Below are positions 47,266-62,971 of a stretch of 64,000 nucleotides of DNA, piece after piece. How positions within the stretch are numbered: the first letter of the stretch is position 1; every line of letters begins with the position of its first letter. Location of the stretch: the NCBI GenBank assembly GCA_017507805.1, contig JAFWAC010000014.1:1-64000 (forward strand), in the 5' to 3' direction. Under the pieces are notes generated by a model. The model was not told the DNA's origin and searched no databases. It saw only the letters and a program-made list of their open reading frames with translations. This DNA is from Clostridia bacterium (GTDB lineage: Bacteria; Bacillota; Clostridia; Oscillospirales; Acutalibacteraceae). The position numbers and the translations under genes are program-made.

Positions 47266-48152
47266 AAAAGAAAAAAAGCGAATTAGCAGTGAGACAGGCT
47301 CGCAAGGGCTACGGCTTTATCGGTCTTTGGCTTTTCGGTATAATTTTCCTTTTCGGAATTCCGATAATTCAGTCCATGATTTACAGCTTTTCCGATGTAG
47401 GTATTGAGGTAGGCTATGTTGATGTTCAGTTTGTCGGTCTTGAAAATTACAAAAAGCTGTTATTCAAAAATACCGAGTATATTCCCGCCTTTTTCCCCAC
47501 GATAGGCAATGTTTTGATTGAGACGCCCATGATTATTTTCTTTAGCCTGTTTATGGCAATAATGCTCAACCAGAAATTCAAAGGCAGAATATTTTTCAGA
47601 GCAGTATTTTTCCTTCCTGTAATTATTGCGGGCGGTGTTGTTATGAATATCATCACTAATGACAGCTATTCGACCTCAATAGTTTCGGGTGCCCGTTCAT
47701 CTATGATGTTCCAATCGGTCGGTGTTGAGCAACTGCTTGGTAATCTGAATTTAAACAGTACCATCACAGAGCTTATTATCGAATATGTAAACGGAATATT
47801 CAACCTTGCGTGGCGCTCGGGAATACAGATGCTTATATTCCTTGCGGCGTTGCAGTCGGTACCGCCTCAGCTTTATGAGGTTTGTAAGGTTGAGGGCGCA
47901 AATTCCTGGGAAACCTTCTGGAAGGTTACCTTCCCGATGATTTCCTCAATGGTTCTGGTAAATGTAACCTATACCTTGGTCGATTTGTTCGGAGATTACT
48001 CTAACGAGATTTTGCAAATGATAACCTCCGCTTCGGAAAAAAGTCAGGTTGGTAACGCTTCGGCAATGGCATGGCTTTATTTCATGGTTTCATTCATCAT
48101 AATTATCGTTACATATTTCCTTATCAACCGCAAGGTTTGCTGGATGGATTAG
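47262..48152 (+). CDS. Sugar ABC transporter permease, second importer
   Basis: 296 residues, six membrane segments, EAA-like loop YEVCKVEGANSWETFWKVTFP. MalF-type partner of the permease encoded next. The start ATG overlaps the DUF5696 stop. Confidence 0.92.
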   Translation: MKKKKSELAVRQARKGYGFIGLWLFGIIFLFGIPIIQSMIYSFSDVGIEVGYVDVQFVGLENYKKLLFKNTEYIPAFFPTIGNVLIETPMIIFFSLFMAIMLNQKFKGRIFFRAVFFLPVIIAGGVVMNIITNDSYSTSIVSGARSSMMFQSVGVEQLLGNLNLNSTITELIIEYVNGIFNLAWRSGIQMLIFLAALQSVPPQLYEVCKVEGANSWETFWKVTFPMISSMVLVNVTYTLVDLFGDYSNEILQMITSASEKSQVGNASAMAWLYFMVSFIIIIVTYFLINRKVCWMD

Positions 48153-48163
48153 GAGGTGCCGCT

Positions 48164-49102
48164 ATGAGTAAAATTAAACCCCAAAATATTTTATCCAAGG
48201 TGTTTGTTTATATAATGGTGTGCGCCGTTGCCTTTATAATACTTTATCCCATGATTTATATGGTGAGTATGGCAATCCGCGAAGCGGACGATATGCTCGA
48301 CCCTGCAGTTATCTGGATACCAAAGCACCTGACCTCGGAAAATTTCAAGCTTGCTTTTGAAGCCCTTGATTACGGTACATCGGTATTCAGAACGGCATTT
48401 TTAACCCTTGCCTGCTCACTTTTGCAGTGCTTTTCAACAGCGCTCGTGGGCTACGGCTTTGCAAGATTTAAGTTTAAAGGAAATAATCTGCTGTTTATGA
48501 TAGTGCTGTTTACCTTTATGGTGCCCACACAGATTATTTCAATGCCGCTGTTTCTGACCTACCGCAATTTTGATTTTGCAGGGCTTGGCGGCTTGCTTGA
48601 AAGGCTCACAGGCACAGGCTTTTCCTTTAACTTTATAAACACTCCTGTTCCTATGATGGCTTCGGCATTTTTCGGAACGGGTATAAGGGCGGGCTTGTTT
48701 ATCTATATATTCAGACAGTCCTTTAAAAACGCACCGCGTGAGCTTGAGGAAGCGGCTTCTATTGACGGCTGCGGCAGTGTGGCAACCTTCTTTAAGATTA
48801 TGATACCAAATTCTCTTGCAATTTTGCTGGTTGCCTTCCTTTTCTCGCTTGTGTGGTATTGGAACGATTATTTCTATTCCGCAATATTCTATAACCAATC
48901 GAGACCTTTGTCTGTAACGCTTGCCAATCTTAATATAGATTTCAGTGATTCCAGCAAGGGCGGCACAACCATTTTCGTAAATGATATTTTAGTTGTTAAG
49001 CAGGCGGCTGCACTGCTTTACATAGCGCCGATTTTAACTTTATATCTTTTCCTGCAAAAATATTTTGTTGAGAGTATAGAGCGAATCGGTATCGTAGGTT
49101 AA
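48164..49102 (+). CDS. Carbohydrate ABC transporter permease, second importer
   Basis: 312 residues from ATG 48164, which has AGGAGGTG upstream; the longer open frame from 48071 overlaps the preceding gene and is rejected. Six membrane segments and the EAA loop LEEAASIDGCGSVATFFKIM. MalG-type channel subunit. Confidence 0.93.
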   Translation: MSKIKPQNILSKVFVYIMVCAVAFIILYPMIYMVSMAIREADDMLDPAVIWIPKHLTSENFKLAFEALDYGTSVFRTAFLTLACSLLQCFSTALVGYGFARFKFKGNNLLFMIVLFTFMVPTQIISMPLFLTYRNFDFAGLGGLLERLTGTGFSFNFINTPVPMMASAFFGTGIRAGLFIYIFRQSFKNAPRELEEAASIDGCGSVATFFKIMIPNSLAILLVAFLFSLVWYWNDYFYSAIFYNQSRPLSVTLANLNIDFSDSSKGGTTIFVNDILVVKQAAALLYIAPILTLYLFLQKYFVESIERIGIVG

Positions 49103-49126
49103 AAAAATTTTTAAGGAGGATTTTTT

Positions 49127-50554
49127 ATGAAAAAAAGATTGTTTTGCTTGGCACTTGCGATTGTAATGCTCTTTGCAGTTGCAGGCTGCGGAAACAACGG
49201 CGGTGGCTCCGGCAGTAAAGACGGAGACAAGGACACCCATCAGGGCTTTGAGCTTACAGAAGCGGACGGTGTTTCGGGTGATATTTACTCGATTGCCAAG
49301 CCTACCCGTAAGCTGGACAGTAAAAAGCTCACATTTTACACATGGGTTGATGAGGAGTCGGTTTTCTCATCTATTCCCGAATTACCAAGCGTTGCCGATA
49401 TTATGACTGATGAATTTGGCGTTGAAATCACAGTAAACACCGTTTCACAGAGTAACTATTGGCAAAACCTTGCAACCCTTATCGCAGGCGGCAGCTCGCC
49501 CGATTTGGTGCAGGTTCCTAACTGGGATTATTATCCCGTTGGTATCACAAGCGGATGCTTGCAGCCCCTTGACGATATCATCAATTTTGATAAGCCCCTT
49601 TGGGAGCAGGGTAAGGAAGCCCGCGAATCCATCAGATGGATAGACGGCAAAATCTATTATCCTACAAGCAGCTCGGGCAGTGTTCAGAAATGGCTTTTCT
49701 TTAATAAGGCACTCTTTAAAGAGGTTGGTCTTAAAACTCCTTATGAGCATTTCCAGGAGGGTACATGGTGCTTTGATACCCTTAAGGATATGTGCGTGAA
49801 GCTTAAAAAGGAGGAAAACGGCGAGGTTACACAGTGGCCATTGCTTATTCAGTCCAACTCACTCATAGCTTCTGCAGGCGTTGAGATTGTTGAGCTTGAC
49901 CGTGAGAACAAGACCTACAAACTTAATCTCCGCCATGAAAATGTTGCTAAGGTTATGAACTTCTTGCACGAACTCGGCAGAGGCGGTCTTAATGTTTTGG
50001 GCGGCACACCCTCCGACTTCCGTCAGCAGAGACTTGCCATGATTACCACCGACTATTGGTGCGCTACATCTGAATTTAACAAAATCCGTCTTGCAGGAAA
50101 CCTTGGTTGGGTTCCCATGCCTTCTATTGAAAAGGGCGGTCAGGTTTATCAGCTTACCACCGCACCCGGCGCCGGTATAGCAATGGTTAAGGGCGCTAAG
50201 AATGTAAACGAGGCAGCACTTTACATTGAACTCAGTGCTTGGAAGGGGCTCAGCAACAGCAAATACGGCGTTCCTATGTATATTGATTATGATAAGCCCT
50301 ATTACCGTGCTTATGAAGGCTCGGCTGAGGCTGACCAACCTGATAAGAGCAAGTGGTTTACCGATGAGGAAGCAGAGATGACTAAGACAATGGGGCTTGA
50401 CAAGCTTCCCCATGTAACCTTCGGCTTCCAGAGCTGGCTTGGCACCTCTGAGCTTGGTCAGATTAAGGTTACTGACTACGGTCAGCAATGGTCTGCTGTG
50501 CTTGAGGAATTAGAGCCAACCTTCAAGTCAACCTGTGATTCTTATTTTGAATAG
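49127..50554 (+). CDS. Sugar-binding lipoprotein of the second ABC importer
   Basis: 475 residues: lipoprotein signal with lipobox AVAGC, Gly/Ser linker, then a family-1 solute-binding domain (FYTWVDEESVF, EFGVEITVN, SSPDLVQVPNWDYYPV, YYPTSSSGSVQKWLFFNKALF). It captures an oligosaccharide outside for the two preceding permeases. AAGGAGG precedes the ATG. It closes the importer cluster; no clear terminator follows. Confidence 0.93.
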   Translation: MKKRLFCLALAIVMLFAVAGCGNNGGGSGSKDGDKDTHQGFELTEADGVSGDIYSIAKPTRKLDSKKLTFYTWVDEESVFSSIPELPSVADIMTDEFGVEITVNTVSQSNYWQNLATLIAGGSSPDLVQVPNWDYYPVGITSGCLQPLDDIINFDKPLWEQGKEARESIRWIDGKIYYPTSSSGSVQKWLFFNKALFKEVGLKTPYEHFQEGTWCFDTLKDMCVKLKKEENGEVTQWPLLIQSNSLIASAGVEIVELDRENKTYKLNLRHENVAKVMNFLHELGRGGLNVLGGTPSDFRQQRLAMITTDYWCATSEFNKIRLAGNLGWVPMPSIEKGGQVYQLTTAPGAGIAMVKGAKNVNEAALYIELSAWKGLSNSKYGVPMYIDYDKPYYRAYEGSAEADQPDKSKWFTDEEAEMTKTMGLDKLPHVTFGFQSWLGTSELGQIKVTDYGQQWSAVLEELEPTFKSTCDSYFE

Positions 50555-50785
50555 TTTTCAATTAGGCTCAGGAACGGCTACCGCGCCGGCACCCGTATGA
50601 TAAGATAAAGTCAAATACTTTGGTAGGGCAGGGGCTTGCTTCTATCCCCGTTATTGCGATGAACACAGCGACTAAGCAATCTGCAAATACCCCAAAAGGC
50701 TTGTCACCTGTGTTAACAACACCTTCGTAATGACAAGAAAAAGGTAACGGCTTCTCTTATCAAACGCGAAAACAATGCGGCTTTG

Positions 50786-50810
50786 GTAGGGTGGGGGCTT
50801 GCTCCCACCG
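50786..50810. repeat. GTAGGGTGGG repeat, copy 3
   Basis: The first 25 bases match those of the copies at 13767 and 14131 exactly. Confidence 0.75.
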
Positions 50811-51158
50811 GAAATTCGGAAATTGCGCAAAGCCTCTGTGTCTGTCATTGTGAGGAACGAGAAATCCCTCCACCGCCATACGGCGGTCCCCCTCCTGACG
50901 GGAGCCGTCCCCTCTGTCCTACGGACATCTCCCCACACTGTGGGGAGTCACCCTTTAGGCAAGGGAGGCGAGTCCGAAGCAATCCGTAAATCTCTTAAAA
51001 GAAAAACGGATTGCCGCGCTTGCGCTCGCAATGACAAGAGGTGAACTTTTGTTACAAATGTTCACCTTGTAGACAAAGCTTGTTGTAGGCTCCCCTTGTC
51101 AGGGGAGCTGGCTGCGCAAGCAGACTGAGGGGTAGTAAAACGGGTTATACCACGTTTT

Positions 51159-51268
51159 CTCTCCCTCCGTCTCGACTTTGTCGAGCCACTGTCTTGCCTG
51201 CCGGCTCGGTTGGTGCTTACTTCTCGCAGAGGTGTCCACCGAACACCCGCACCCTCATCAGAGGGAGG
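51159..51268. repeat. 110-bp element bounded by CTCTCCCTC and GAGGGAGG, left copy
   Basis: Closely similar to the reverse complement of 53920-54030. Shared stretches are GGCTCGGT-TGGTGCTT, GCAGAGGTGT and the end ACACCCGCACCCTC. Short terminal inverted repeats and no coding capacity make it MITE-like. Confidence 0.7.
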
Positions 51269-51483
51269 CAAGTCCGATGCAATGACAGTTACGGTGATTT
51301 GTGTGGCGCTGCTTCTGTGCCTTGCCCGAAAGGGTATATTGAAAAGGCTCGAACCGCGAGCTTGCTTTGCAATGCGCGGGACCCCTTGCAAAACATATCA
51401 TTATTCTGTGCGGCAGTTACAGAGTATTTGGTATTTCCACGCGGTCTGGCGACCGCAAAAACAAATTGTAAAGGAGTATTTTT

Positions 51484-53832
51484 ATGAAATTAAACAAATT
51501 AGTTTCCCTTGTTCTGGCACTTGCAATGGTACTTACCATGTTCTGTGGTATAAGCCTCACGCCTTCTGCCGAAGGTGACACCGAGGCGGCTACCGCTACA
51601 ACCGTTAAGGCTTATCAGACATATAATTCAGCAAAATATACTGAGCATACTACTAATTTTGATATTTATAATTCCATTTGGGATTTAGAAGATGTTGCCG
51701 AGCTTGAGGGTATGAATCATGTGTATTTCTACATTAAGGGCGCAACAAATAACGAGATTAAATTCGGTCTTAATGACGCTGACGGCACATTCTGGTGTCC
51801 AAATAATGTGACACCTATAAATGTTACAACCGTAAGCTCCACAGGCACAGTAGGTACTGACTCTGCTAAAACATTCGATGGTCTGGGAGTTAGGCTTTCA
51901 ACAGACTTTGAGGGCTATGTAGTTTTAAGCTTTACAGACGATATGCTAAACCACCCCGGTTATACCAGTAATACAATAGAAGGCTTTGATATAACAACAA
52001 TTCAGAATATTAAGGTTTTTGGTTTCAACGCTGAAAAATACGGTGATTTCGGCTTTGCCGCAAGCAAGGGCGATGCTGTAAATGCTATTCTTACCAAGCT
52101 TGGCAAGGGCGAGCTTAACAGCACCTACAGCAGTGAAATTATTCCGATGAATATTGAATTGAATACTGCTGTTAGTAATGAAATTGGTGGTGGATGGTCC
52201 AATTATGCCAATTATCAGGCAGGTAATGAGAAACTTGCGGATGCAAAGTTTATAGGCTTCCGTCTTAAGGCTGACACAGCTTATAATTTTAATTTCCAGC
52301 TTCAGGCAGGAGAAACTCGAATTTTCTTGAACTCGGGTGAGCGTTTGCAATACAATTTATCTGCAGATGGTACACTTGTTGATTATACTGCACCGAATAC
52401 TGCGACCTATGGTGATTCTTTTGACGGTTGGGTAATTCTCCCGATTGGCACTTTTGATTGGACCGTATCGGTAGCTGACCTTAACAAGGTATTTATTCAA
52501 AATCAAACAACAGATACATTTACAATCGGTGACTTTGCAATTTCCACCACAACAGTTGATGCTCTTGCCGCATATTACACCGTTGCTGAGTCTGGTGCTG
52601 CTTCTACTGCCATTGCAGCAAATAAAATCGGCGGAACCATTAATATGCTTGAGGACACAACCGTTCTTGAAGGCAAGAAATGGTTTGGCTTAAAGCTTGC
52701 ATCAACAGACGCATCTGACCAGACTGTTAAATTGGGTATAAATATTTCCTCTGTAACAAATAACTATGCTTTGCATATTGCGGCTGGTTCTAACTATTAT
52801 TTGGTTACTGATGATGGCACAGCTACCAGAAAGACCGCTGATGGTTATGCCGATTTGAGTGTTCCTGCCGGCTTTAATGGCTATGTTTTTATAGAAAAGA
52901 ATTCATTAGGCTCTGTATGGGGTACTGCCACTGCTGATCAGATTGATGAATATTTAAACATTGGCTTCTTTAGTGGTACTTATACCAATATTACCGCAAA
53001 CACCCCTGTATTTGCAGATACCTTTAAAGCCCTTTATGATGAGTATGCCGCACTTGCAGCGGACGATTACAAGGATAATACCTATCTTATAAACAAGAAT
53101 GACATTGCTGTACCTGCTTCAAGTGCGAATGGTAATGAAATTGTAAGATTAGACAGACTTAAGGCTGCTACCGGTGATGCTTTAGGTATGCAGTGGCTCG
53201 GCTTCCGCTTAAAGACTACCGGCTCAAATAACTACTTCCAATTCTATCTTTATGAGAATGACAGATTGGCAGTGGATGAATATGGTGACATCGTAATTGA
53301 TGAGACAACCGGCTACCCCACCTTCCTGAACGAAAATTATTGGACAAATAACACACCCTATTATCTTGTAAACAAGGATGGTACAATAACTGAGGGTAGG
53401 CTTGCCGCGAACGGTCAGCTTTGGGCACGTGAAGGTGCTGCTTTTGACGGTTATGTGGTTATTCCGCTTTCCTCTTTTGTTGAGCACCCGGCAAGTAATA
53501 CCGTCAATGGAGAGCTTAATCCTGAGCTGATTTCGTATGTAGGCTTCAATGCTTCCTCTTATGGTCTCACTGCAGAGCGTTTTGCAATGGCAAAGACCCG
53601 CAACGAGCTTATTGAATACCTTGCTAATGCCGAGATGCTTTACAGCTGGGAAAACCGCGGTGATGTTACCGGCAATGGTGCAATTGATATTCTTGACCTT
53701 GTTCGTTACAAGAAGTATGCTGCCGATGATACGGTTGAAGTGGTAATCGAAAATCTGGATGCTAACGGCGATGAGGACATTGATTTCTCAGTTGAGCTTG
53801 TAGCTCTTGTTCAGCTTATTTTAGATAAGTAA
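51484..53832 (+). CDS. Secreted multi-module protein with C-terminal dockerin-like domain
   Basis: 782 residues: signal peptide (1-30), four copies of a beta-rich module (about 40-215, 220-365, 365-525 and 530-715), and a dockerin-like pair of calcium loops at about 725-782 (DVTGNGAIDILDLVRYKKY and DANGDEDIDFSVELVALVQL). Each module has a core like WLGFRLKTTGSNN, a GYVVIPL strand and often an FAMAKT-like end. I infer a non-catalytic glycan-binding or scaffold-docked surface protein; no catalytic motif is seen. AAAGGAG precedes the ATG. Confidence 0.8.
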   Translation: MKLNKLVSLVLALAMVLTMFCGISLTPSAEGDTEAATATTVKAYQTYNSAKYTEHTTNFDIYNSIWDLEDVAELEGMNHVYFYIKGATNNEIKFGLNDADGTFWCPNNVTPINVTTVSSTGTVGTDSAKTFDGLGVRLSTDFEGYVVLSFTDDMLNHPGYTSNTIEGFDITTIQNIKVFGFNAEKYGDFGFAASKGDAVNAILTKLGKGELNSTYSSEIIPMNIELNTAVSNEIGGGWSNYANYQAGNEKLADAKFIGFRLKADTAYNFNFQLQAGETRIFLNSGERLQYNLSADGTLVDYTAPNTATYGDSFDGWVILPIGTFDWTVSVADLNKVFIQNQTTDTFTIGDFAISTTTVDALAAYYTVAESGAASTAIAANKIGGTINMLEDTTVLEGKKWFGLKLASTDASDQTVKLGINISSVTNNYALHIAAGSNYYLVTDDGTATRKTADGYADLSVPAGFNGYVFIEKNSLGSVWGTATADQIDEYLNIGFFSGTYTNITANTPVFADTFKALYDEYAALAADDYKDNTYLINKNDIAVPASSANGNEIVRLDRLKAATGDALGMQWLGFRLKTTGSNNYFQFYLYENDRLAVDEYGDIVIDETTGYPTFLNENYWTNNTPYYLVNKDGTITEGRLAANGQLWAREGAAFDGYVVIPLSSFVEHPASNTVNGELNPELISYVGFNASSYGLTAERFAMAKTRNELIEYLANAEMLYSWENRGDVTGNGAIDILDLVRYKKYAADDTVEVVIENLDANGDEDIDFSVELVALVQLILDK

Positions 53833-53919
53833 TGCAGGGGATATGTTCCCATCTCACACCCTATTGGGATAATTAATTGCAGGGGACTGTTTCACTAAAT
53901 GCGTTTTGGACAATTCTTT

Positions 53920-54030
53920 CCTCCCTCTGACGAGGGTGCGGGTGTCCTGCGAACACCTCTGCGCAAGCAGAAGCACCGACCGAGCCGACAGGCGAGACGG
54001 TGGCACGGCGTAGCCGTGACGGAGGGAGAG
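53920..54030. repeat. 111-bp element, right copy, inverted relative to 51159-51268
   Basis: Begins CCTCCCTCTGACGAGGGTGC and ends GGAGGGAGAG; its reverse complement aligns along the left copy. The two copies flank the dockerin-bearing gene. Confidence 0.7.
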
Positions 54031-54064
54031 AAGAGGTGAAAATTCTACAATTATGGTAGTTTTT

Positions 54065-54113
54065 CTCTCCCTCAGTCTTGTTTCACTCGACAGCTCCCTC
54101 GTCAGAGGGAGCC
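54065..54113. repeat. Short relative of the CTCTCCCTC element
   Basis: Starts CTCTCCCTCAGTC and ends TCAGAGGGAGCC; an internally deleted version of the 110-bp element. Confidence 0.5.
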
Positions 54114-54217
54114 AACGTGGAAAGCAATGCCGGGAGTTGTGCATTTCACCCTTAGTGAGACAGCCTCTTGCGGGGAAACGATGCCTTTATCCATCCTTTC
54201 AAAAAAGACGGATTTTT

Positions 54218-54244
54218 GTAGGGTGGGGGCTTGCTCCCACCGAA
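54218..54244. repeat. GTAGGGTGGG repeat, copy 4
   Basis: 27 bases identical to the start of the copies at 13767 and 14131. Confidence 0.75.
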
Positions 54245-54343
54245 ATTTCCTATGATAAGCTGATAACATTTGTTATAAACATTTTATCCTTCTTTTTTGA
54301 GGGGATGGTAGAAATCACTTTAAAAAGGAATAGTGACATAAAA

Positions 54344-57300
54344 ATGCGAAAAAGAAAAATTATTGCCTTAATGCTAACGGTGGTGCTTGCGCTTGCTGTT
54401 TTTCCGTTTAATATCGGCAGTGTCTTTGCCGCGGAAGCCGCGCAAAGCGTTGCAGCCTCCGATGCGGATTTTCTCATAGCAAACAACACCGTTACGGTAA
54501 CGCTTGATCCCACTGTTGTTAATGCGGAACACTCTGTTTCAAATGCGGCATATAAAAATTCTGCGCTTGATGAAATGGAGTGGCTTGGCTTCAAGGTGAA
54601 CACAGCTGATTCAGCCGGTCATTTTTGCATGGCGCTTGAGGAATCAAACGGTGCGCGGTATGCCCCGGAAGCTAAGCACAAACAAATCTATCTGATGGAT
54701 AAAACGGGCAAGATGACCGAATTTACGAGCTACAATAGCGGTAATTATCGCCTTTGGCTTGACGGAAATTTTGATGGCTATGTTATTTTAAATATTCAAG
54801 AGTTTTTTTCAACAACACATACAGCCTATCCCGATAGTGACGGTCAGCTTACCCTTTCTGATATAACAGCGATAAAATTATGGCATTTGGTAGATTCAAC
54901 ATCTGATTGGACGGTTGAAAATTTTGTATTTGCAAAAACAAAAAGCGATTTTGCAGGCTGCTTCCTTGAAATGGACATATATGCCGATATTAATGCAGAC
55001 AGGGAAATAAATGTTATTGATTTAGTTCGCTTTAAGAGGTATAATACAGATAAAAGCATTTCAATTGCCAAAAACAATGCAGACCTTGTTTTTGACAGTG
55101 CTATTGATGCATTGGATTTGGCAGAGCTTAGCAAATACCTTTTAAGCGGTGCTTATGCCAACGATAAAGAGGGGCTTTATTTCAAAACCCTGCGTGAGCC
55201 CGACACCGAATTTATAACAGACGGAAGGCTCTATGTAATATTAGATAAAACAATGCCGCAGGCGCTGTTTTATAAAACGGCTGACGGTCGTTACATATTC
55301 GGAGCAGGGGATATAACTCAGGAAACACTTGAAAACAGCTACATTATAAACGGCAGTACATATTCTCCTGCTAATGTTACCTTTGAGAAAACGGGTGACA
55401 GCACTGCTCAGTACAGTGTTACTATAAAAAGTGTTGCTTTAAGCAGCAGTGTTACATCCAACATATCCTTTACATACCGCTATACCGTTAAGGACGGTGA
55501 GCTTGTGAAGGAAATGCTGTCCCTTACGGGTGACGATAAAAACATCCCACTCAGCATTGAGGAAACCGCCCCTGTGTTAAAGGTATATGACACAATGGCA
55601 GGCGCAGGAATTGCCGCATCGTCTACCGAGTTTGATAAAAATGTGGGATATGTGGGCGAGGAGATGATAGGCACCCTTGCCGAGCTTTCAAGTGGAGACT
55701 CTATAAGCGACAGCAGCTTTTCCTTCGTGTGGAACGATAATTTAGCGGCTTCGATTTACACGGAATCAGCATTCCATAATCCTTACACCGCTAAGGTGAG
55801 CACACAAAGCTTGGGCAAAGCGGGTGAGCTTTATGCAGGTGTTTACTATCACCGTCTGCTTGGCGGTGAGCGTGTTCAAAGCGAGGACGAAAACGGCAAA
55901 ATCACCGATGTGCTTTATAAATCGGTTATAGGCTTCTCTGCCGACTGCAACTCCACCGAAACAGTCGATTGGCAGGACGCCGCGGTATGGCTGAGAGGCA
56001 GAATACCTCAGATGTCCACCGCTTTAAGAGCCTATTTGAATCAGGGCGATTGGGCACAGACACAGGCGGCTTTCCCACAAAGCAAGGCTACTTCAGAGGA
56101 AGTAAACAATCCTGCGATTGATGTCCGTGGAACCTACGGACAGTATTTGTCCCGCCAGAAAAATGTTTATAACCTTACCGATAAGGTTGGTAAATTTGCA
56201 TACTGTATGGTAGGCTGGCAGGGTAGAGGTCACGATTATAATTGGCCTGATTTGACCGACCAGATACTTAATCCTGCTTTGCTCGGCAGTCTTGATGAGC
56301 TTTTGGAATACAAGGAGCAGTTTGCAGATGTGGGCGGTGTGCTTTCCTTCCATATAAATCAGAGTGATATAAGCGAGGGAAGCAAGGCTTATGCCGATCA
56401 CGGCTCTGAGGTTACAGTGACCACGGGTGATGTTGTCTCAAGCTTTGGCTGGAATATTTATCCTATGTCACACTATTTTGACTTTACGGGCGGTTATGCC
56501 ACCCAAAGGCAGGATGCCTTTGCTGAGGAAATCTATGCTCCGTTTATTATGTATAGTGATGTTATGCTCGACACTGCGGCTTATGCCGGCACCTTTAAAG
56601 GGCTTACTGCTGTTGAGGAGCAATATGCCAAAGCTCGTGAGGTACAGCATTGGCGCGCATTGGGCACCAATATTGCTACCGAAAATTACAGTCAGGAGAA
56701 ATACCTCAACGGTCAGTTCCTGTTTAATTTCTTAGCCTTCCCAACGGTTATTGACCAATTTATGACGGCAGGCAATATCCGTATATATAACTCGCGTTTA
56801 AGTCATAAATTTGCAGAGGAGGACCGCGGCATTTATACCTCGGATTATATTTGGGGTATGGTTTCGGGTTATCTGAATGTTGAAGACCCTTACACCGAGG
56901 CTTCATTCTTATATAGCGGCGACTATGTTTCTGCTGCTAAAAAGCTTGCCTACAATGTTTTCAGAGGCGGCTTTGTAAACGGTATGATGGGAAGCGCAGG
57001 TATCCTTTCGTATAAAGAAACCGATACAGGCTATGAAACGGTTTGGAATAACGGTATTTCCGCTGTTTATGACAGGGAAACCGATACCGTAAAGATTTGG
57101 AATGATGGTGTGCTTGTGGCGGATGGTGACAGCGTGTTTATTGCTTCACCTGACGGTGAGGAAAAAATCCTTGCATATACAATTTCGGCAACCACTCTTA
57201 CACGCAAGCTACCCGAAGCCTTTAGAGGCTACAGCGCCCTTTCGCTTTACCGCCTTTCGGAGGATGGCAGGGTGTATATAGGGGAGGTTGCAGTTCAAAA

Positions 57301-58000
57301 CGGTGAAGTAAGCTTTGAAACCGAAGCCTACACCTCTTATGTGCTCTTACCAAACGGTGCCAAAGCCTCTGTCAAGGAAAATGTGATGACCAAGGTTTCA
57401 AAGGCAGTAGGAACCTCCAAAAACGCGAATAGCTATGATTGGTACACAATCTATGATTTCCGCACAAGGGGCGGCAGTAAGCCACTGAGCATTGCAAAGG
57501 CGCTTTCACCCGATAATGATTGGCTTACAACCTTTAATAATCAGTTAGAGGATTATATGCTTGATTCGTCAGGTAATCTGCTTTGTGAATATCCTGCAAA
57601 CCCATTCTGCACCATTGACGGCGATATTAATACCTATTGGGAGCCGGCAACCAACATAAATACCGATTCTTCACCGGACGATGGCAGTGAAAATGATATG
57701 GCAGCGAACAAGGCGTATATTACTTATAATTTCAAATCGGAACAGAAGGTTAAATATATAAAAATAACCGAGGCCTCCGAAGCTGATTCAGAGGTTCTGG
57801 ACTTTGGTATTGCTTATTGGAAGGATGGAAAATTTAATGTATGCTATCGCTCTACCAACGGAATACCTGACACCGAAATAGATATTTCGGATTATTTGAC
57901 GGATGTAACGGACATTTCAACAACTGCGCTGAAGCTGACAATCAATACAGCGGAAAGCAATACCCCACGCATTGCTGAAATAGCTGTTTATTCAAAATAA
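54344..58000 (+). CDS. Secreted GH101-like glycosidase with internal dockerin-like domain
   Basis: 1218 residues from ATG 54344 (AAAAAGGAA upstream; ATG 54305 is possible). Order: signal peptide (1-28), one shared beta-rich module (about 35-205), a dockerin-like segment (about 210-270, DINADREINVIDLVRFKRY), a beta-sandwich, a TIM-barrel region (about 545-860), and a C-terminal F5/8-type C domain (about 1075-1218). The barrel resembles GH101 endo-alpha-N-acetylgalactosaminidases: WQGRGHDYNWPD, LSFHINQSD, GWNIYPMS, MYSDVML with candidate nucleophile D739, and IATEN with candidate acid/base E780. Likely attacks O-linked mucin-type glycans; similarity is distant. Confidence 0.65.
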   Translation: MRKRKIIALMLTVVLALAVFPFNIGSVFAAEAAQSVAASDADFLIANNTVTVTLDPTVVNAEHSVSNAAYKNSALDEMEWLGFKVNTADSAGHFCMALEESNGARYAPEAKHKQIYLMDKTGKMTEFTSYNSGNYRLWLDGNFDGYVILNIQEFFSTTHTAYPDSDGQLTLSDITAIKLWHLVDSTSDWTVENFVFAKTKSDFAGCFLEMDIYADINADREINVIDLVRFKRYNTDKSISIAKNNADLVFDSAIDALDLAELSKYLLSGAYANDKEGLYFKTLREPDTEFITDGRLYVILDKTMPQALFYKTADGRYIFGAGDITQETLENSYIINGSTYSPANVTFEKTGDSTAQYSVTIKSVALSSSVTSNISFTYRYTVKDGELVKEMLSLTGDDKNIPLSIEETAPVLKVYDTMAGAGIAASSTEFDKNVGYVGEEMIGTLAELSSGDSISDSSFSFVWNDNLAASIYTESAFHNPYTAKVSTQSLGKAGELYAGVYYHRLLGGERVQSEDENGKITDVLYKSVIGFSADCNSTETVDWQDAAVWLRGRIPQMSTALRAYLNQGDWAQTQAAFPQSKATSEEVNNPAIDVRGTYGQYLSRQKNVYNLTDKVGKFAYCMVGWQGRGHDYNWPDLTDQILNPALLGSLDELLEYKEQFADVGGVLSFHINQSDISEGSKAYADHGSEVTVTTGDVVSSFGWNIYPMSHYFDFTGGYATQRQDAFAEEIYAPFIMYSDVMLDTAAYAGTFKGLTAVEEQYAKAREVQHWRALGTNIATENYSQEKYLNGQFLFNFLAFPTVIDQFMTAGNIRIYNSRLSHKFAEEDRGIYTSDYIWGMVSGYLNVEDPYTEASFLYSGDYVSAAKKLAYNVFRGGFVNGMMGSAGILSYKETDTGYETVWNNGISAVYDRETDTVKIWNDGVLVADGDSVFIASPDGEEKILAYTISATTLTRKLPEAFRGYSALSLYRLSEDGRVYIGEVAVQNGEVSFETEAYTSYVLLPNGAKASVKENVMTKVSKAVGTSKNANSYDWYTIYDFRTRGGSKPLSIAKALSPDNDWLTTFNNQLEDYMLDSSGNLLCEYPANPFCTIDGDINTYWEPATNINTDSSPDDGSENDMAANKAYITYNFKSEQKVKYIKITEASEADSEVLDFGIAYWKDGKFNVCYRSTNGIPDTEIDISDYLTDVTDISTTALKLTINTAESNTPRIAEIAVYSK

Positions 58001-58028
58001 AAAATTTATTTTAAAGGAGAAATGAAAA

Positions 58029-59405
58029 ATGAAAAAAATCATCAGCTTGCTCGTGGTTGCAGTTTTGGTTTTGACACTTGCTTTTGCCGGTGTTGTTACC
58101 GTAAGTGCAGACACAGCTACCAACACAGACGTTCTCGTTTTAACCGGTGAGCAGTCTAAAACATCATTGGCAGGCACAACCGATGAGCATCATTTCACCA
58201 ATGAGCTTTATCAGGATGCCAATACTGATTATACCGGTATGGAGTGGATTGGTTTCCGTCTTAAGACAACCGGTAAGGGTGGTTCAATCGTTATCGCTCT
58301 TAATCAGGATGATAACGGTCTTTATTGGCCGACACCTCAATCCCACATAAACTACCTTATCACCACTGAGGGTGTTGAATCAAGCTTCACTCTTCTTGAG
58401 CAGGGACGCGTATACTGCGACAAGGAGAATTTTGACGGTTATGTGCTTATAAGCCTTAAGGATTATTTCGTTTGTCATCCGGGTTATACTGCTAATGATG
58501 CAGACGGCAAATTAAACCTTGATCAGATACCTGTTATCCGTTTCTGGCACAATACTTCTACCTCTGATTGGACTATCAGTGGTGTAACTCTTGCAAAGAC
58601 CAAGGATGCTTTCCTTGCACATTATGATCTTTTACCCGATAGCGGTGACGGCAATGGTAACGGCACAGGAACAGGCACCGGTACAGGTACGGGAACAGGA
58701 ACAGGTACGGGAACAGGTACAGGTACGGGAACAGGTACAGGTGCAGGTGCAGGCGCTGAAAAGGAAGAAAGCAAGGTTAAGGGCAATGATAATGTTATCG
58801 TTGCTAACGATGACACCGTTCTTGTTCAGCCTGCAAATGACACATCAACAAAAACAGCAGAAAGCTATGCTTTAGGTCTTAAAAAGGCTGATAATATGAA
58901 ATATTTCGGTTTCTATATCAAGACCGAAGCAGGCGGTTCTATTTGTATTGGTTTGCGTGAGAAAGACGGTTCGCTTTATTGGCCTAAAACCGGCCCTAAA
59001 ACCGGTTATCTTATCGCCAAGGACGGCACAGAGGCTGTATTCAGCATTGAGGATCAGGGCAGAGTTAAGTTCAACACCGCAATGGAGGGATATATAGTTG
59101 TTGCATTGGATGATTATATGACCATTCATCCTGGTCATAAGCCAGATGCCAGCGGTAAGCTTGAACTTTCAAATATTGAGAAGTTCGAAATCTGGCACTC
59201 TGTTTGCAATTCCGATGTTACAATCAGTCATTTTACCTTTGCAAAGACCAAGGATGATTTCATCAATTATTATTTGAATGGCGGTAACGGTGGTGCTATT
59301 CCTTCCACCGGTGACAACAGCAATGTAGTAGTTGTATCTGTTGTTTCTGTTATAGCTTTGCTTTCGGTTGCTTTTGTAACCTTAAAGCTTAGAAAAGCTA
59401 ACTGA
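58029..59405 (+). CDS. Sortase-anchored surface protein with two shared modules
   Basis: 458 residues: signal peptide (1-27), module 1 (about 35-205), a linker of 13 Gly-Thr pairs and three Gly-Ala pairs (211-243), module 2 (about 255-420), then IPSTG at 424-428, a membrane helix and the tail KLRKAN. IPSTG is an LPXTG-type sorting signal, so a sortase should attach it to the wall. Both modules end in an FAKTKDDF-like strand, as in the neighbours. AAAGGAG precedes the ATG; it lies 28 bases after the GH101-like gene, probably in one operon. Confidence 0.8.
   Translation: MKKIISLLVVAVLVLTLAFAGVVTVSADTATNTDVLVLTGEQSKTSLAGTTDEHHFTNELYQDANTDYTGMEWIGFRLKTTGKGGSIVIALNQDDNGLYWPTPQSHINYLITTEGVESSFTLLEQGRVYCDKENFDGYVLISLKDYFVCHPGYTANDADGKLNLDQIPVIRFWHNTSTSDWTISGVTLAKTKDAFLAHYDLLPDSGDGNGNGTGTGTGTGTGTGTGTGTGTGTGTGTGAGAGAEKEESKVKGNDNVIVANDDTVLVQPANDTSTKTAESYALGLKKADNMKYFGFYIKTEAGGSICIGLREKDGSLYWPKTGPKTGYLIAKDGTEAVFSIEDQGRVKFNTAMEGYIVVALDDYMTIHPGHKPDASGKLELSNIEKFEIWHSVCNSDVTISHFTFAKTKDDFINYYLNGGNGGAIPSTGDNSNVVVVSVVSVIALLSVAFVTLKLRKAN
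58662..58757 (+). repeat. 6-bp tandem repeat encoding Gly-Thr/Gly-Ala
   Basis: Sixteen in-frame hexamers of the form GGNACN or GGNGCN, lying within the surface-protein gene. Copy-number change would alter linker length in steps of two residues without shifting frame. Long open frames on the opposite strand here are by-products. Confidence 0.85.
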
Positions 59406-59435
59406 TAGAGTATATCTAATTAGGAGAAATTAAGT

Positions 59436-60449
59436 ATGAAAAAGATAATCACATTATTGATAGCATTTGTGCTGTTAATGTCTTTTGCAGTGATTCCTGC
59501 CTCTGCGGCAGACGACCTTACCCTGCTCAATCCCTGCGGTGATGGTGATTTTACTGCAAGCTCTCCCATGGTTTTCGAAGTTTCCGATGAGTCTCCTGAC
59601 GGTGTTTGTGCTTCGATTGAATATGACACAGCAGGTCCGGTTGCAAGCTTTGGAAGCAAAGTCCCCGAAACCGAGCGTGCAGCAGATGCTAATAAAAACT
59701 ATCTCTGTTTTTGGATTAAGACACCTTATACAGAATGTGACAGTGGTATTTTCGTAGGACTTTTTGAGACGACCATTGCGGGTCAGGAAATGATTTGGAA
59801 CGGTCATGAGAAAACACAGGTTAGTTACAGCGGTCAAATTGTTACAATTGATAAGAACGGTGAAAAGGCATATATTGATGCTACCCGTCTGCTTATTTTG
59901 AAGCCCGGCTTTGAAGGCTATGTTGCGATTCCTTTAGAGGGTGCAATGCATATTCATAGCGGATGGAAAAAGGACGGCGTGTTTGATAAAAGCAAAATAA
60001 GCGGTGTTCAGATTTGGTTTGACGGCAGTCACACCGCTTGGGATGAAAGATATTGTTTTGACAATTTTACCCTCGCTAAGGATGAGGCATCCTTTGTTTC
60101 GATGGTTGAGGCTACAGGTTTGTCGGTTAAGACTGCTACTACCACGCCTGTAGAGGATGACACCCCTGACGATACCTCCTCTGACGACAAAACAAGCTCT
60201 GTTACAGACAGCAGTACTGACACAAGCTCTGATACTACTGTTGGCAGCACCAATACAGACAACGAAAATACAAATACCGGCACAACAAACGGCGGTGACA
60301 ACAGAATAGGTATACTTATTCTTATCATAGTTATCGTTTTATTGCTTGCTGCGGTTGCTATTATCTTTATCTACAAGCCTGCATTTCTTTTCGGTAAAAA
60401 GGAAGAGAAGGTAGCTGAGGAAACCACAGAAACTAAATCTGAGGAATAA
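59436..60449 (+). CDS. Membrane-anchored surface protein with one shared module
   Basis: 337 residues: signal peptide (1-24), one module of the shared type (about 28-225; LCFWIKTPYTECD, FEGYVAIPLEGAM, FDNFTLAKDEASF), a Ser/Thr/Asp-rich stalk (about 230-285), a membrane helix (about 289-312) and a charged cytoplasmic tail (KKEEKVAEETTETKSEE). Unlike its neighbour it has no sorting signal, so it stays in the membrane. AGGAG precedes the ATG. Last gene of the surface-protein group. Confidence 0.8.
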   Translation: MKKIITLLIAFVLLMSFAVIPASAADDLTLLNPCGDGDFTASSPMVFEVSDESPDGVCASIEYDTAGPVASFGSKVPETERAADANKNYLCFWIKTPYTECDSGIFVGLFETTIAGQEMIWNGHEKTQVSYSGQIVTIDKNGEKAYIDATRLLILKPGFEGYVAIPLEGAMHIHSGWKKDGVFDKSKISGVQIWFDGSHTAWDERYCFDNFTLAKDEASFVSMVEATGLSVKTATTTPVEDDTPDDTSSDDKTSSVTDSSTDTSSDTTVGSTNTDNENTNTGTTNGGDNRIGILILIIVIVLLLAAVAIIFIYKPAFLFGKKEEKVAEETTETKSEE

Positions 60450-60453
60450 AATC

Positions 60454-60492
60454 AAACGGTGGATGGCAAAGCCCATCCACCGTTTGTTTCTT
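60454..60492. terminator. Terminator of the surface-protein operon
   Basis: 13-bp stem AAACGGTGGATGG / CCATCCACCGTTT (60454-60485, 7-base loop), then GTTTC. It may serve both strands, since the GH39-like gene converges on it. Confidence 0.75.
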
Positions 60493-60532
60493 GGTGTATT
60501 TCTTTATCATTCAAGCTTATATGATTTACTTG

Positions 60533-62014
60533 CTATTTTTCAGCAAGTATCAAATATGTGCAGTTGGGAGTCAGCGTTAATGTAAGGGGTTCATTTCCTT
60601 TTTGAACGCTTACGGGCTTTAACCTACCTTCCTTGCGTAAGGCTTTTAGCATATCCTCGGTCATTTCAGGCTTACCTGCGCGCTCCCACATACGGTAAGG
60701 ATTATTATTGTTTTTATCGATGCAGTAGATGGTGAGCGTCATATCCGAAATATCGTCAGAAAAGCTTATTTCCTCTGTGATTGCAGGCAAATCCTCCTCA
60801 AAATGCTTGGAGCAATAGGTCAACAATACAGAATAGTTATCAGCTTCATCCTTGGTAGGAACTGTAAAAATATTTTCGTTTTCACATGTGACGCCAACCA
60901 GATAATCTCCCATCTTGGAGGTCATAAGATGGGCATTATATATCGGTTTGGTGATGAAATTCAGGGTAAAGAAATTGCGGAAACCCGAAAAATCGGTTAC
61001 CATTTCATGCTGTCCCGAAAGGCATATCATCATTTTTGAGATATTGATACCCGACTCGATTAGTTGATATATTAACTTTGCGAAATACGAGGAATATACC
61101 TCGTTCTCTCGGAATATCAGCAAAGGACATTCCTCAATATTGTAAAAGCCGTGAGTGGAAGCACCCCATTCGTCTAAGATAAGCTCGGTATTCTCAAAAC
61201 CGTACTTTTTGAGAACCGCCATATATGGATCAATTCTGAATACAAAATGATTCTCAGTAGCCAAAGGTGTCGATCCGTCATTTAACATGCGCACATCCGT
61301 ACCGTAAGTATGCAATGCTACATAATTCATTTCTACACCGGTCTTTTTGACATGCGCCAAAAATTGATCAAGAAAATCTACATTATACGAAATTGCGGGA
61401 CCGCCCACAGGGATACCCTTAGATGCTCTGCGTACACCTCTTACAAAAGCATCGTACAGCTTGCAGTATTCTGCACTCTTTACAGCGCAATCTTCTTCCC
61501 CTAAATTACTCATCCAGAAAGTACAGTCAGGCTCATTGTGGCATTGGCAATGCCATCCTGCTACGGTGTCCTCACCGTAGCGTTCAACCAAATGTTTTGT
61601 GTATTCATAGCATATTTCCTCCCAAACTGCATAATCCTTTGGTGGTGAGGAGTTCCACATCTTTCCTTTGTAACGGGTATTATTTTTGGAAGAGCCATTC
61701 AAATAAAGTATAGATTCAGCAACGCAATCAGGCATAGCACCATAGGCGAGCAGAAGGTCAAAGCCTTTCTCTAACAGATAGTCTATGCGAAGGTCGCTTA
61801 TACGGAAATCATAGCAAATCTCTCCGTCCTCACCTATGTAAACGATATCCTCAAACATAGAATAAATTCGAATTGTTTTTATGGCGCCATCTGCTGCCAT
61901 ACGATCCAGAATACGCCTTCCCCAAGGATCTTCAACGGCATCGGTGGGGTGGAATAGTGCATGATTCCAGAATTTGGGTTGTTTTTTTAAAGTTGTATTT
62001 TGGATTTTAATCAT
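60533..62014 (-). CDS. GH39-like glycosidase (beta-xylosidase family)
   Basis: 493 residues from the minus-strand ATG at 62014, which has AGGGAGG upstream; the longer open frame to 62149 is rejected. No signal peptide, so cytoplasmic. The acid/base is E161 in WHCQCHNEPD and the nucleophile E282 in LILDEWG, matching GH39 (beta-xylosidase/alpha-iduronidase) spacing. The C-terminal beta domain ends in TLTPNCTYLILAE. Divergent from an AraC regulator that probably controls it. Confidence 0.85.
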   Translation of the reverse strand: MIKIQNTTLKKQPKFWNHALFHPTDAVEDPWGRRILDRMAADGAIKTIRIYSMFEDIVYIGEDGEICYDFRISDLRIDYLLEKGFDLLLAYGAMPDCVAESILYLNGSSKNNTRYKGKMWNSSPPKDYAVWEEICYEYTKHLVERYGEDTVAGWHCQCHNEPDCTFWMSNLGEEDCAVKSAEYCKLYDAFVRGVRRASKGIPVGGPAISYNVDFLDQFLAHVKKTGVEMNYVALHTYGTDVRMLNDGSTPLATENHFVFRIDPYMAVLKKYGFENTELILDEWGASTHGFYNIEECPLLIFRENEVYSSYFAKLIYQLIESGINISKMMICLSGQHEMVTDFSGFRNFFTLNFITKPIYNAHLMTSKMGDYLVGVTCENENIFTVPTKDEADNYSVLLTYCSKHFEEDLPAITEEISFSDDISDMTLTIYCIDKNNNNPYRMWERAGKPEMTEDMLKALRKEGRLKPVSVQKGNEPLTLTLTPNCTYLILAEK

Positions 62015-62120
62015 AATTTGCCTCCCTTTATAGCATCTAAAATTCCTTTTAAGTATCCAATAGCGAAAAGTCTGCCTATTGTGGTGTATCCCGCAACTGC
62101 AGTATCCCCGCCTTTTGGAG

Positions 62121-62149
62121 TTGACATATTTATACGGATATTGTATCAT
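62121..62149 (+). promoter_or_regulatory. Promoter of the AraC-type regulator
   Basis: TTGACA (62121-62126), 17 bases, TATCAT (62144-62149), with a 75-base leader. The roughly 210-base region shared with the divergent GH39-like gene presumably holds the operator. Confidence 0.8.
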
Positions 62150-62224
62150 TACATTAACGGTTGCGCAATTGATTATTCAATTATATATATATGCTATTCG
62201 TTAATTTTCAGGGAGGTAACTGTT

Positions 62225-62971
62225 ATGGTCGATGTTTGCTTCAACGAAAAAATAGAGCATATGATAGATACCATTGGGTTTATAAGCGTAATGAGAAACG
62301 AGGGCTATACATTCAAATATAAAAACGGTAAAGAAAAGTATTCTTTAATTTATGTGGAAAACGGAGAGCTTGAATATTATTTTCCATCAACCAATCAATG
62401 CCTGCGTATTACAAAGGGAGCTGTTCTCTATATCCCCAAATTACTGCCATACGAAACTATGTATTTACAGGATAATACTATTATAAAAATACTCGTTTTT
62501 GATATTGCCGATTGTGGGATTCCGAAAAATCTTTCACTGCCTATTATTAAAAAAAACACAGCAGCAGCTTCCGTTTTTAATTCGATTGCGTACTTTAATA
62601 TGAATAATACTCTGTTTTTAGTGTCGAAAGCATACGAAATGCTTTCGCTCCTGCAAAAAGACAGCAGTGAGATTCCGCTAAAGTATCAAAAGCTACTTCC
62701 TGCAATCAGAGAAATCAAAGAAAAATTTTTTGAAAACAAAAAAGTATCTTATTATGCTGACCTGTGCAATATGTGCGAATCTAATTTCAGGATACTTTTT
62801 AAGGAATTAACAGGAAAGTCCTTTATAGATTATAGAAATTATATTCGTATATTCGAAGCAAAAAAGATGATTGACAGCGGCGAAACCACTGTAACCGAGG
62901 CGGCATATCTGACGGGTTTTAATAATATGGCTTTTTTTTATAAGATTTATAATCGATATAAAAACGGTTGA
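62225..62971 (+). CDS. AraC-family transcriptional regulator
   Basis: 248 residues from ATG 62225 with AGGGAGG upstream; the longer frame from 62000 is rejected. An N-terminal cupin-like sensor domain (about 20-130) is followed by two C-terminal HTH motifs (about 160-245; YADLCNMCESNFRILFKELT and VTEAAYLTGFNNMAFFYKIY). It probably senses a sugar and activates the divergent GH39-like gene; the effector is unknown. Confidence 0.92.
   Translation: MVDVCFNEKIEHMIDTIGFISVMRNEGYTFKYKNGKEKYSLIYVENGELEYYFPSTNQCLRITKGAVLYIPKLLPYETMYLQDNTIIKILVFDIADCGIPKNLSLPIIKKNTAAASVFNSIAYFNMNNTLFLVSKAYEMLSLLQKDSSEIPLKYQKLLPAIREIKEKFFENKKVSYYADLCNMCESNFRILFKELTGKSFIDYRNYIRIFEAKKMIDSGETTVTEAAYLTGFNNMAFFYKIYNRYKNG

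Follow-up and report, generated by a model that had tools for sequence, protein, structure and literature searches.

The closest published system that we found is the Limousia mucinolysome, in which, according to the available part of its description (PMC12997984), enzymes of the glycoside hydrolase (GH) family 101 type are borne on dockerins and accompanied by cohesin-bearing proteins. Here, we describe a locus with a dockerin-borne, GH101-like enzyme, in a genome that also has cohesin matches. The locus lies in a 64,000-nucleotide stretch (positions 1 to 64,000 of contig JAFWAC010000014.1, assembly GCA_017507805.1), which we will call the window, and it includes four successive genes, A–D, for secreted proteins that are built from copies of one repeated module (Table 1). 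That part of the Limousia description names the carbohydrate-binding module (CBM) family CBM32 and no module of the present kind. Also, unlike the mucinolysome, our system has no large scaffoldin among its cohesin matches. In the available part of PMC10076258, we found no link to the module.

Two described protein families are relevant as well. The module resembles CBM11 (PF03425) in a remote match that stays in register over 99–100 columns, running from the I-x-F-x-I-K strand past the I-P-F strand and ending with the final I-D-D/N-I strand. But the G-F-D-G-Y-V segment of the module falls where CBM11 has a gap, and Pfam's CBM_11 model does not match. Similarly, protein B resembles the GH101 endo-α-N-acetylgalactosaminidases (EngBF, 2zxq; 3ecq; 5a55-5a5a) in that it aligns to EngBF at both terminal domains, but it has no match to the barrel model PF12905, and its match to Glyco_hyd_101C is below the cut-off.

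We propose, with moderate confidence, that A–D are the surface-display arm of a glycan-foraging locus and that the module is an undescribed, CBM11-like jelly-roll β-sandwich that binds glycans. By "undescribed" we mean by searches of Pfam, NCBIfam, PDB sequences, and the literature only.

Eight homologous modules in A–D and a large family in the genome

The initial annotation, which was made from the DNA alone, had described eight copies of one module, with four, one, two, and one copies in A, B, C, and D. This is borne out by leave-one-out profiles, which found each of the eight copies (24.4–126.5 bits; Table 1). As controls, the best of 500 shuffles per copy scored 6.1–10.0 bits and reversed copies scored at most 5.1 bits. 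An iterated profile found just these eight places (domain E ≤ 0.1) among the 120 frames of at least 100 amino acids in the window. The shuffle and reversal controls of the leave-one-out and iterated profiles rule out chance similarity. Pairwise BLASTP joins most of the copies (E = 1e-22 for B to C and 1e-6 for C to D), with A2 joined weakly (best E = 3e-4) and A3 undetected by this method.

A profile of the eight window copies matched 31 places in the window's own genome at E ≤ 0.1. After iteration on 108 proteins (A–D and the open reading frames of 15 stretches), 47 modules in 16 proteins passed a threshold of E = 1e-3. Because each of these stretches was picked for a match to the module, to cohesin, or to dockerin, 47 is a lower bound for the parts of the genome that were fetched, and not a census. 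No shuffled copy of these proteins (480 in all) scored above 7.8 bits with the family profile. The family is highly divergent, with a median pair identity of 15.9% over 1081 pairs. In a midpoint-rooted tree of the 47 modules, which has modest supports, the module of L070, a D-type protein from another cluster (C18), groups with seven of the eight window copies, but not with A3.

The initial annotation also viewed the proteins as sets of interchangeable parts, and the case for this is now stronger than it was stated, as the same four-module order occurs with and without a GH29-like domain, and partners and anchors change (Table 1). The two proteins with this order (L071:2909-7006 and L073:4994-8170) both carry dockerins, and one has the GH29-like domain. 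Their four modules are collinear, and matched modules are 36.1–48.8% identical, versus 16.0–31.8% for unmatched ones, which suggests that four-module arrays have been copied or moved as blocks.

Probable remote kinship with CBM11

The module had been thought to be new, as no named CBM family was recognised in it. It is still the case that no Pfam or NCBIfam family names it in our scans, but a profile of the whole family matches CBM11 at 93.8–94.9%, so the module probably does not stand alone. Scans of the modules against Pfam and NCBIfam gave no convincing name, searches of PDB sequences gave no convincing match, and literature searches with the terms that we used found no description. Pfam's CBM_11 did not match any of the eight window modules or 27 others at E ≤ 1, nor anything in the genome, and CBM_4_9 (PF02018) was likewise unmatched in these 35 modules.

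A few weak matches were considered and rejected. DUF7679 matched one of the eight window modules (E = 0.0013) with 17.8 bits, versus a cut-off of 27. Among the single weak Pfam matches, the Lar_0958 mucus adhesin model matched one of the 27 other modules (E = 0.0044). In PDB, the alignments to virginiamycin B lyase (35 profile positions, E = 0.0015), fibroblast growth factor, and others were short and unconvincing. Separately, PDB entry 8smq matched the 27-module profile with E = 0.021 and a domain E of 0.22, which is not significant, and we view it as a lead for structural comparison only. In the available part of PMC10792529, 8smq is a secreted protein of unknown function from C. difficile with a strand-swapped β-barrel.

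Comparing profiles to profiles was more informative (percentages are profile-comparison scores). Five subgroups of modules match each other at 85.5–98.3%. An alignment of 112 modules (47 from this genome and 65 from other genomes) was compared with family profiles built from other genomes. It matched CBM11 at 94.9% (E = 4.7e-8 for one comparison), with 99 columns in register. The same profile scored 2.3% with CBM4/9, 0.1% with F5/8 type C (F5/8C), and 0.3% with cohesin; 40 column-shuffled decoys scored at most 0.6% and the reversed profile scored 1.4%. The 112 included one duplicate, and after it was removed and the rest realigned, the scores were 93.8% for CBM11, 12.1% for CBM4/9, 0.0% for F5/8C, and 0.7% for cohesin, with 40 decoys at 0.4% or less. 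The 47 modules from this genome reached 87.3% with CBM11, and a 33-module set reached 34.6%. Over all the CBM11 comparisons, decoys scored up to 0.7% for the large profiles and up to 2.8% for the window eight, and reversed profiles scored up to 1.4%. Circularly permuted copies scored 42–44% (highest six), but these are not a valid control because local alignment survives permutation.

Across the profile comparisons, F5/8C scored at most 0.2% and cohesin at most 0.7%, so kinship of the modules with either is unsupported. The CBM4/9 profile scored 0.2–4.8% with the five subgroups. CBM4/9 and CBM11 are both jelly-roll CBMs, and for scale, their profiles score 55.2% with each other. The CBM11 profile used five of eight loci, after the partial matches L170-L172 were dropped. 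For CBM4/9, 48 places were listed, and the profile used 23 of 30 loci, without L144, L152, L154, L160-L162, and L164. Eight of 10 places went into the cohesin profile, and the F5/8C profile was made of five C-terminal ends whose limits were set by position and not by a model. Overall, these comparisons point to a probable remote kinship with CBM11-type jelly rolls and not to membership in CBM11. We regard the module as a promising candidate for a CBM-like family of its own, and we infer that it binds glycans.

How the proteins are attached

Pfam matches and direct reading agree with the attachments that had been assigned to A–D: a dockerin-like domain, a GH101-like region plus a dockerin-like domain, a sortase signal, and a membrane helix, respectively. 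For B, the domain order should be corrected to module, dockerin, GH101-like part, and F5/8C-like part. A Pfam scan of protein A found no catalytic domain. In protein C, we take the IPSTG motif to be of the sortase (LPXTG) class; against TIGR01167, the protein scores 11.4 bits, below the cut-off of 15.9. Another module protein, at C7, ends (by eye) in IPTTG and a hydrophobic stretch, so IPxTG may be a local sorting motif.

The genome has candidate partners for these signals. We found one sortase gene, 10 places that match cohesin (nine above the cut-off), and 37 that match dockerin (31 above the cut-off, two of them only with neighbours). Of 14 control genomes, some are matched by these models too: two by cohesin, two by dockerin, and three by sortase.

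The GH101-like enzyme in protein B

Pfam's Gal_mutarotas_3 (PF18080), which is the N-terminal domain of GH101-type enzymes, is the clear match in B (Table 1); Glyco_hyd_101C reaches 18.4 bits, versus a cut-off of 25. The genome also encodes two close paralogues of B's enzyme part, which are 48 and 49% identical to it. The catalytic-barrel model PF12905 is passed by two paralogues from this genome (31.6 bits for L129:4340-6388 and 29.5 bits for L129:1468-4098; cut-off 25). The whole sequence of B matches EngBF (2zxq) with E = 4e-9, and the paralogue L129:1468-4098 matches it with E = 1.9e-13. We take D739 (56558-56560) and E780 (56681-56683) to be candidate catalytic residues, by motif and spacing. 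Both are invariant in B and four paralogues from this genome (5 of 5), as are several other Asp and Glu residues.

We also noticed another GH101 barrel match in this genome, at G000:C7:54131-54514 (30.2 bits, cut-off 25). Two contigs of this genome start inside frames that share their first 60 residues (L128:2-1471, which is GH20 by Pfam, and L129:2-1471), and in each case two GH101-like genes follow. This is probably an assembly break at a repeated gene block.

Proposed role of the modules

Near A–D in the window are a GH35 gene, a DUF5696 gene, two sets of genes for ATP-binding cassette (ABC) importers, and a GH39 gene. The C18 cluster combines one of the close paralogues of B with a GH20 gene that the contig start truncates, another GH101-like gene, a GH95 gene, a GH35 gene, and L070, whose module is 49.4% identical to D1. 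So the window subfamily recurs beside two GH101-like genes and genes for GH20, GH95, and GH35. Fucosidase, hexosaminidase, β-galactosidase, and endo-α-N-acetylgalactosaminidase types together suit the breakdown of mucin O-glycans. Because these types cluster with the window subfamily, its likely target would be mucin-type O-glycans. In the window subfamily (the eight window copies and L070), the position of W389 in C2 is W or F in seven of nine modules, the position of H367 is H in five of nine, and the position of Y317 is W, Y, or F in seven of nine. These positions are candidates for ligand contact.

We propose that single and tandem modules bind glycans and that the rest of each protein sets where the binding sites sit. 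The dockerins would recruit A and B to cohesin-bearing complexes, the sortase motif would fix C to the wall, and the helix would fix D in the membrane. B would carry a divergent GH101-type enzyme to the bound glycan, and the neighbouring ABC importers would take up the products. More tentatively, we suggest that this undescribed, lineage-restricted family of CBM11-like modules, of which a 2.3 Mb genome has at least 47 copies, serves a cellulosome-like surface system as its general kit for recognising glycans. Whole arrays would be copied and joined to varied anchors, with or without enzymes, and every subfamily would be adapted to the glycan of the locus in which it lies (mucin O-glycans for the window's).

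Some results weigh against this proposal. The ligand is assigned by association only. Among the aromatic columns listed, none is conserved across the 47 modules except F and Y/F in the G-F-x-G-Y core. The CBM11 profile was made from five sequences, with an effective number of sequences (Neff) of 1.9; the window eight alone reach just 38.4% with it; the four subgroups other than the window's score 0.2–2.5%; and subset A7 scores 1.7% with CBM11 and 32.8% with CBM4/9, with which the de-duplicated family also scores (12.1%, above). No frame among the cohesin matches has more than two cohesins, and no large multi-cohesin scaffoldin was found among them. As for the enzyme, PF12905 does not match B at E ≤ 1, and the two stretches of B that are shown aligned to EngBF have E of just 0.015 and 0.0025.

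The modules might instead bind sugars of plant or dietary polysaccharides and not host mucin. GH35 and GH39 are not specific to mucin, other copies of the module sit with GH16, and CBM11 has been linked to β-1,3-1,4-glucan (in the available part of PMC5686792). However, the window subfamily is found in two GH101-like clusters, one of them also with GH20, GH95, and GH35, and we consider the plant or dietary alternative unlikely. Also unlikely is a reading in which the modules bind no sugar and act as spacers or protein contacts, setting both distance and geometry within a complex. It would account for the many tandem copies in long proteins, for the divergence of the family, and for the lack of family-wide aromatic columns outside the core, but it does not sit well with the remote match to CBM11. 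Furthermore, D and L070, both small and anchored, have a single module each and lack any enzyme that would need spacing, and the modules of the window and L070 group together and both lie in GH101-type neighbourhoods. Finally, the modules might tether the proteins to a polymer of the producer's own wall. This would fit the surface location and the tandem copies, but C and D carry their own anchors and A and B carry dockerins, and we consider it very improbable.

If the modules do bind glycans, then they would establish a new CBM family, in a lineage that is uncharacterised and probably clostridial, and they would explain how many of its long, unannotated secreted proteins hold sugar chains of the host or the diet. 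A clear first candidate for the ligand comes from the two clusters in which the window subfamily stands beside GH101-type genes.

Distribution in other genomes

The window profile matched five of 198 relatives at 1e-6, and a 33-module profile matched 14 of 300 genomes from the same family at 1e-5 (both counts include the window's own genome). In a class-wide draw of 391 genomes, the only match of the 33-module profile at 1e-6 was that genome itself. Related arrays are found in two uncultured Clostridia metagenome-assembled genomes (MAGs) and in Ruminococcaceae bacterium UBA5905 (4 loci). A contig scan with profile set A5 gave 79 pattern matches, with five relatives at four loci; with profile set A2 (not module A2), it gave 65 pattern matches and no relative.

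Two of the related loci, L119 and L120, have the order permease, permease, six-module protein, and a further gene, with a DUF5696 gene before the permeases in L120. (The gene at the DUF5696 place in L119 is cut.) C22 keeps this order, and the gene after the six-module protein is fucosidase-like in both loci where it was scanned, C22 (68.4 bits) and L119 (39.9 bits). Within the genome, module genes have ABC permease genes close upstream in the window and at C22, C31, and C13 (where one of two permease-like genes has no Pfam match).

We also noticed a DUF5696 gene and an ABC permease pair upstream of module genes at three places in this genome (45115-49102, L072:473-4870, and L084:3-2927) and in another MAG (L120:664-5056). 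In L084, the DUF5696 gene is incomplete, and Pfam does not match one of the permease-like genes; L119 also has permeases. DUF5696 is unnamed in the literature that we searched.

Gene boundaries and minor features

Table 1. Features of the A–D region, in window coordinates, followed by module proteins from elsewhere in the same genome
Feature	Position	Strand	Details
Gene A	51484..53832	+	782 amino acids; four modules between a signal peptide (by eye) and a C-terminal type I dockerin
Module A1	51571..52104	+	leave-one-out 44.9 bits
Module A2	52111..52569	+	leave-one-out 25.1 bits
Module A3	52567..53049	+	leave-one-out 31.6 bits; the only one of the eight that the tree places outside the window clade
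Module A4	53032..53625	+	leave-one-out 71.3 bits
Dockerin type I of A	53659..53784	+	PF00404 (Dockerin_1) 27.0 bits, cut-off 22.9
Gene B	54344..58000	+	1218 amino acids from preferred start; signal peptide (by eye) followed by a module, a dockerin, a GH101-like enzyme, and an F5/8C-like domain
Module B1	54449..54964	+	leave-one-out 103.6 bits
Dockerin type I of B	54980..55144	+	PF00404 36.7 bits, cut-off 22.9
Gal_mutarotas_3 domain of B	55214..55972	+	PF18080 47.1 bits, cut-off 27
Presumed GH101-like barrel of B	55976..57133	+	candidate catalytic residues D739 and E780, by motif and spacing
F5/8 type C-like domain of B	57608..57952	+	24.6 bits, below Pfam cut-off of 28.2
Gene C	58029..59405	+	458 amino acids; signal peptide (by eye), two modules with Gly-Thr linker between, sortase-type C-terminus
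Module C1	58107..58625	+	leave-one-out 120.1 bits
Tandem repeat encoding Gly-Thr linker C1-C2	58665..58753	+	repeat search
Module C2	58755..59279	+	leave-one-out 126.5 bits
IPSTG sortase-type motif of C	59298..59312	+	read directly; hydrophobic stretch and basic tail after
Gene D	59436..60449	+	337 amino acids; signal peptide (by eye) and a single module, then a Ser/Thr-rich linker and a membrane helix
Module D1	59520..60107	+	leave-one-out 24.4 bits; closest is the L070 module of the second cluster
C-terminal membrane helix of D	60306..60374	+	read directly from translation
Terminator-like stem, 14 pairs, T-rich tail	60453..60486	listed on both strands	directly 3' of D; consensus match
Module + GH16 + membrane helix	C22		1742 amino acids
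Module + GH29-like + dockerin	C22		1365 amino acids; PF01120 25.8 bits, cut-off 25.2
Module + dockerin, no other Pfam domain	C5		1058 amino acids
Module + dockerin, no other Pfam domain	C7		1002 amino acids
Module + DUF4874/DUF4832	C31 and C7
Module + SGNH-type stretch	C31		1888 amino acids; SGNH type by eye, without Pfam match
Module protein, probable lipoprotein	C13		by eye
Module protein with IPTTG-type C-terminus	C7		by eye

A–D are all on the plus strand, separated by gaps of 511, 28, and 30 bases if B starts at 54344. We prefer this start to the first listed ATG, which is further upstream at 54053, as a signal-peptide-like stretch (by eye) comes right after the start at 54344. The terminator consensus search that lists the stem after D found 19 sites in the region, versus 9.5 expected. 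A search of positions 48000-62500 with Rfam found nothing at gathering scores, and a plasmid search with protein C found no match.

There are also dispersed intergenic repeats. An inverted pair (51122-51272 and 53916-54078; 82-88% alike) flanks gene A, and a 36-base direct repeat is found three times in gaps between genes (50619-50654, 50782-50817, and 54214-54249; 67-92% to the reference copy).

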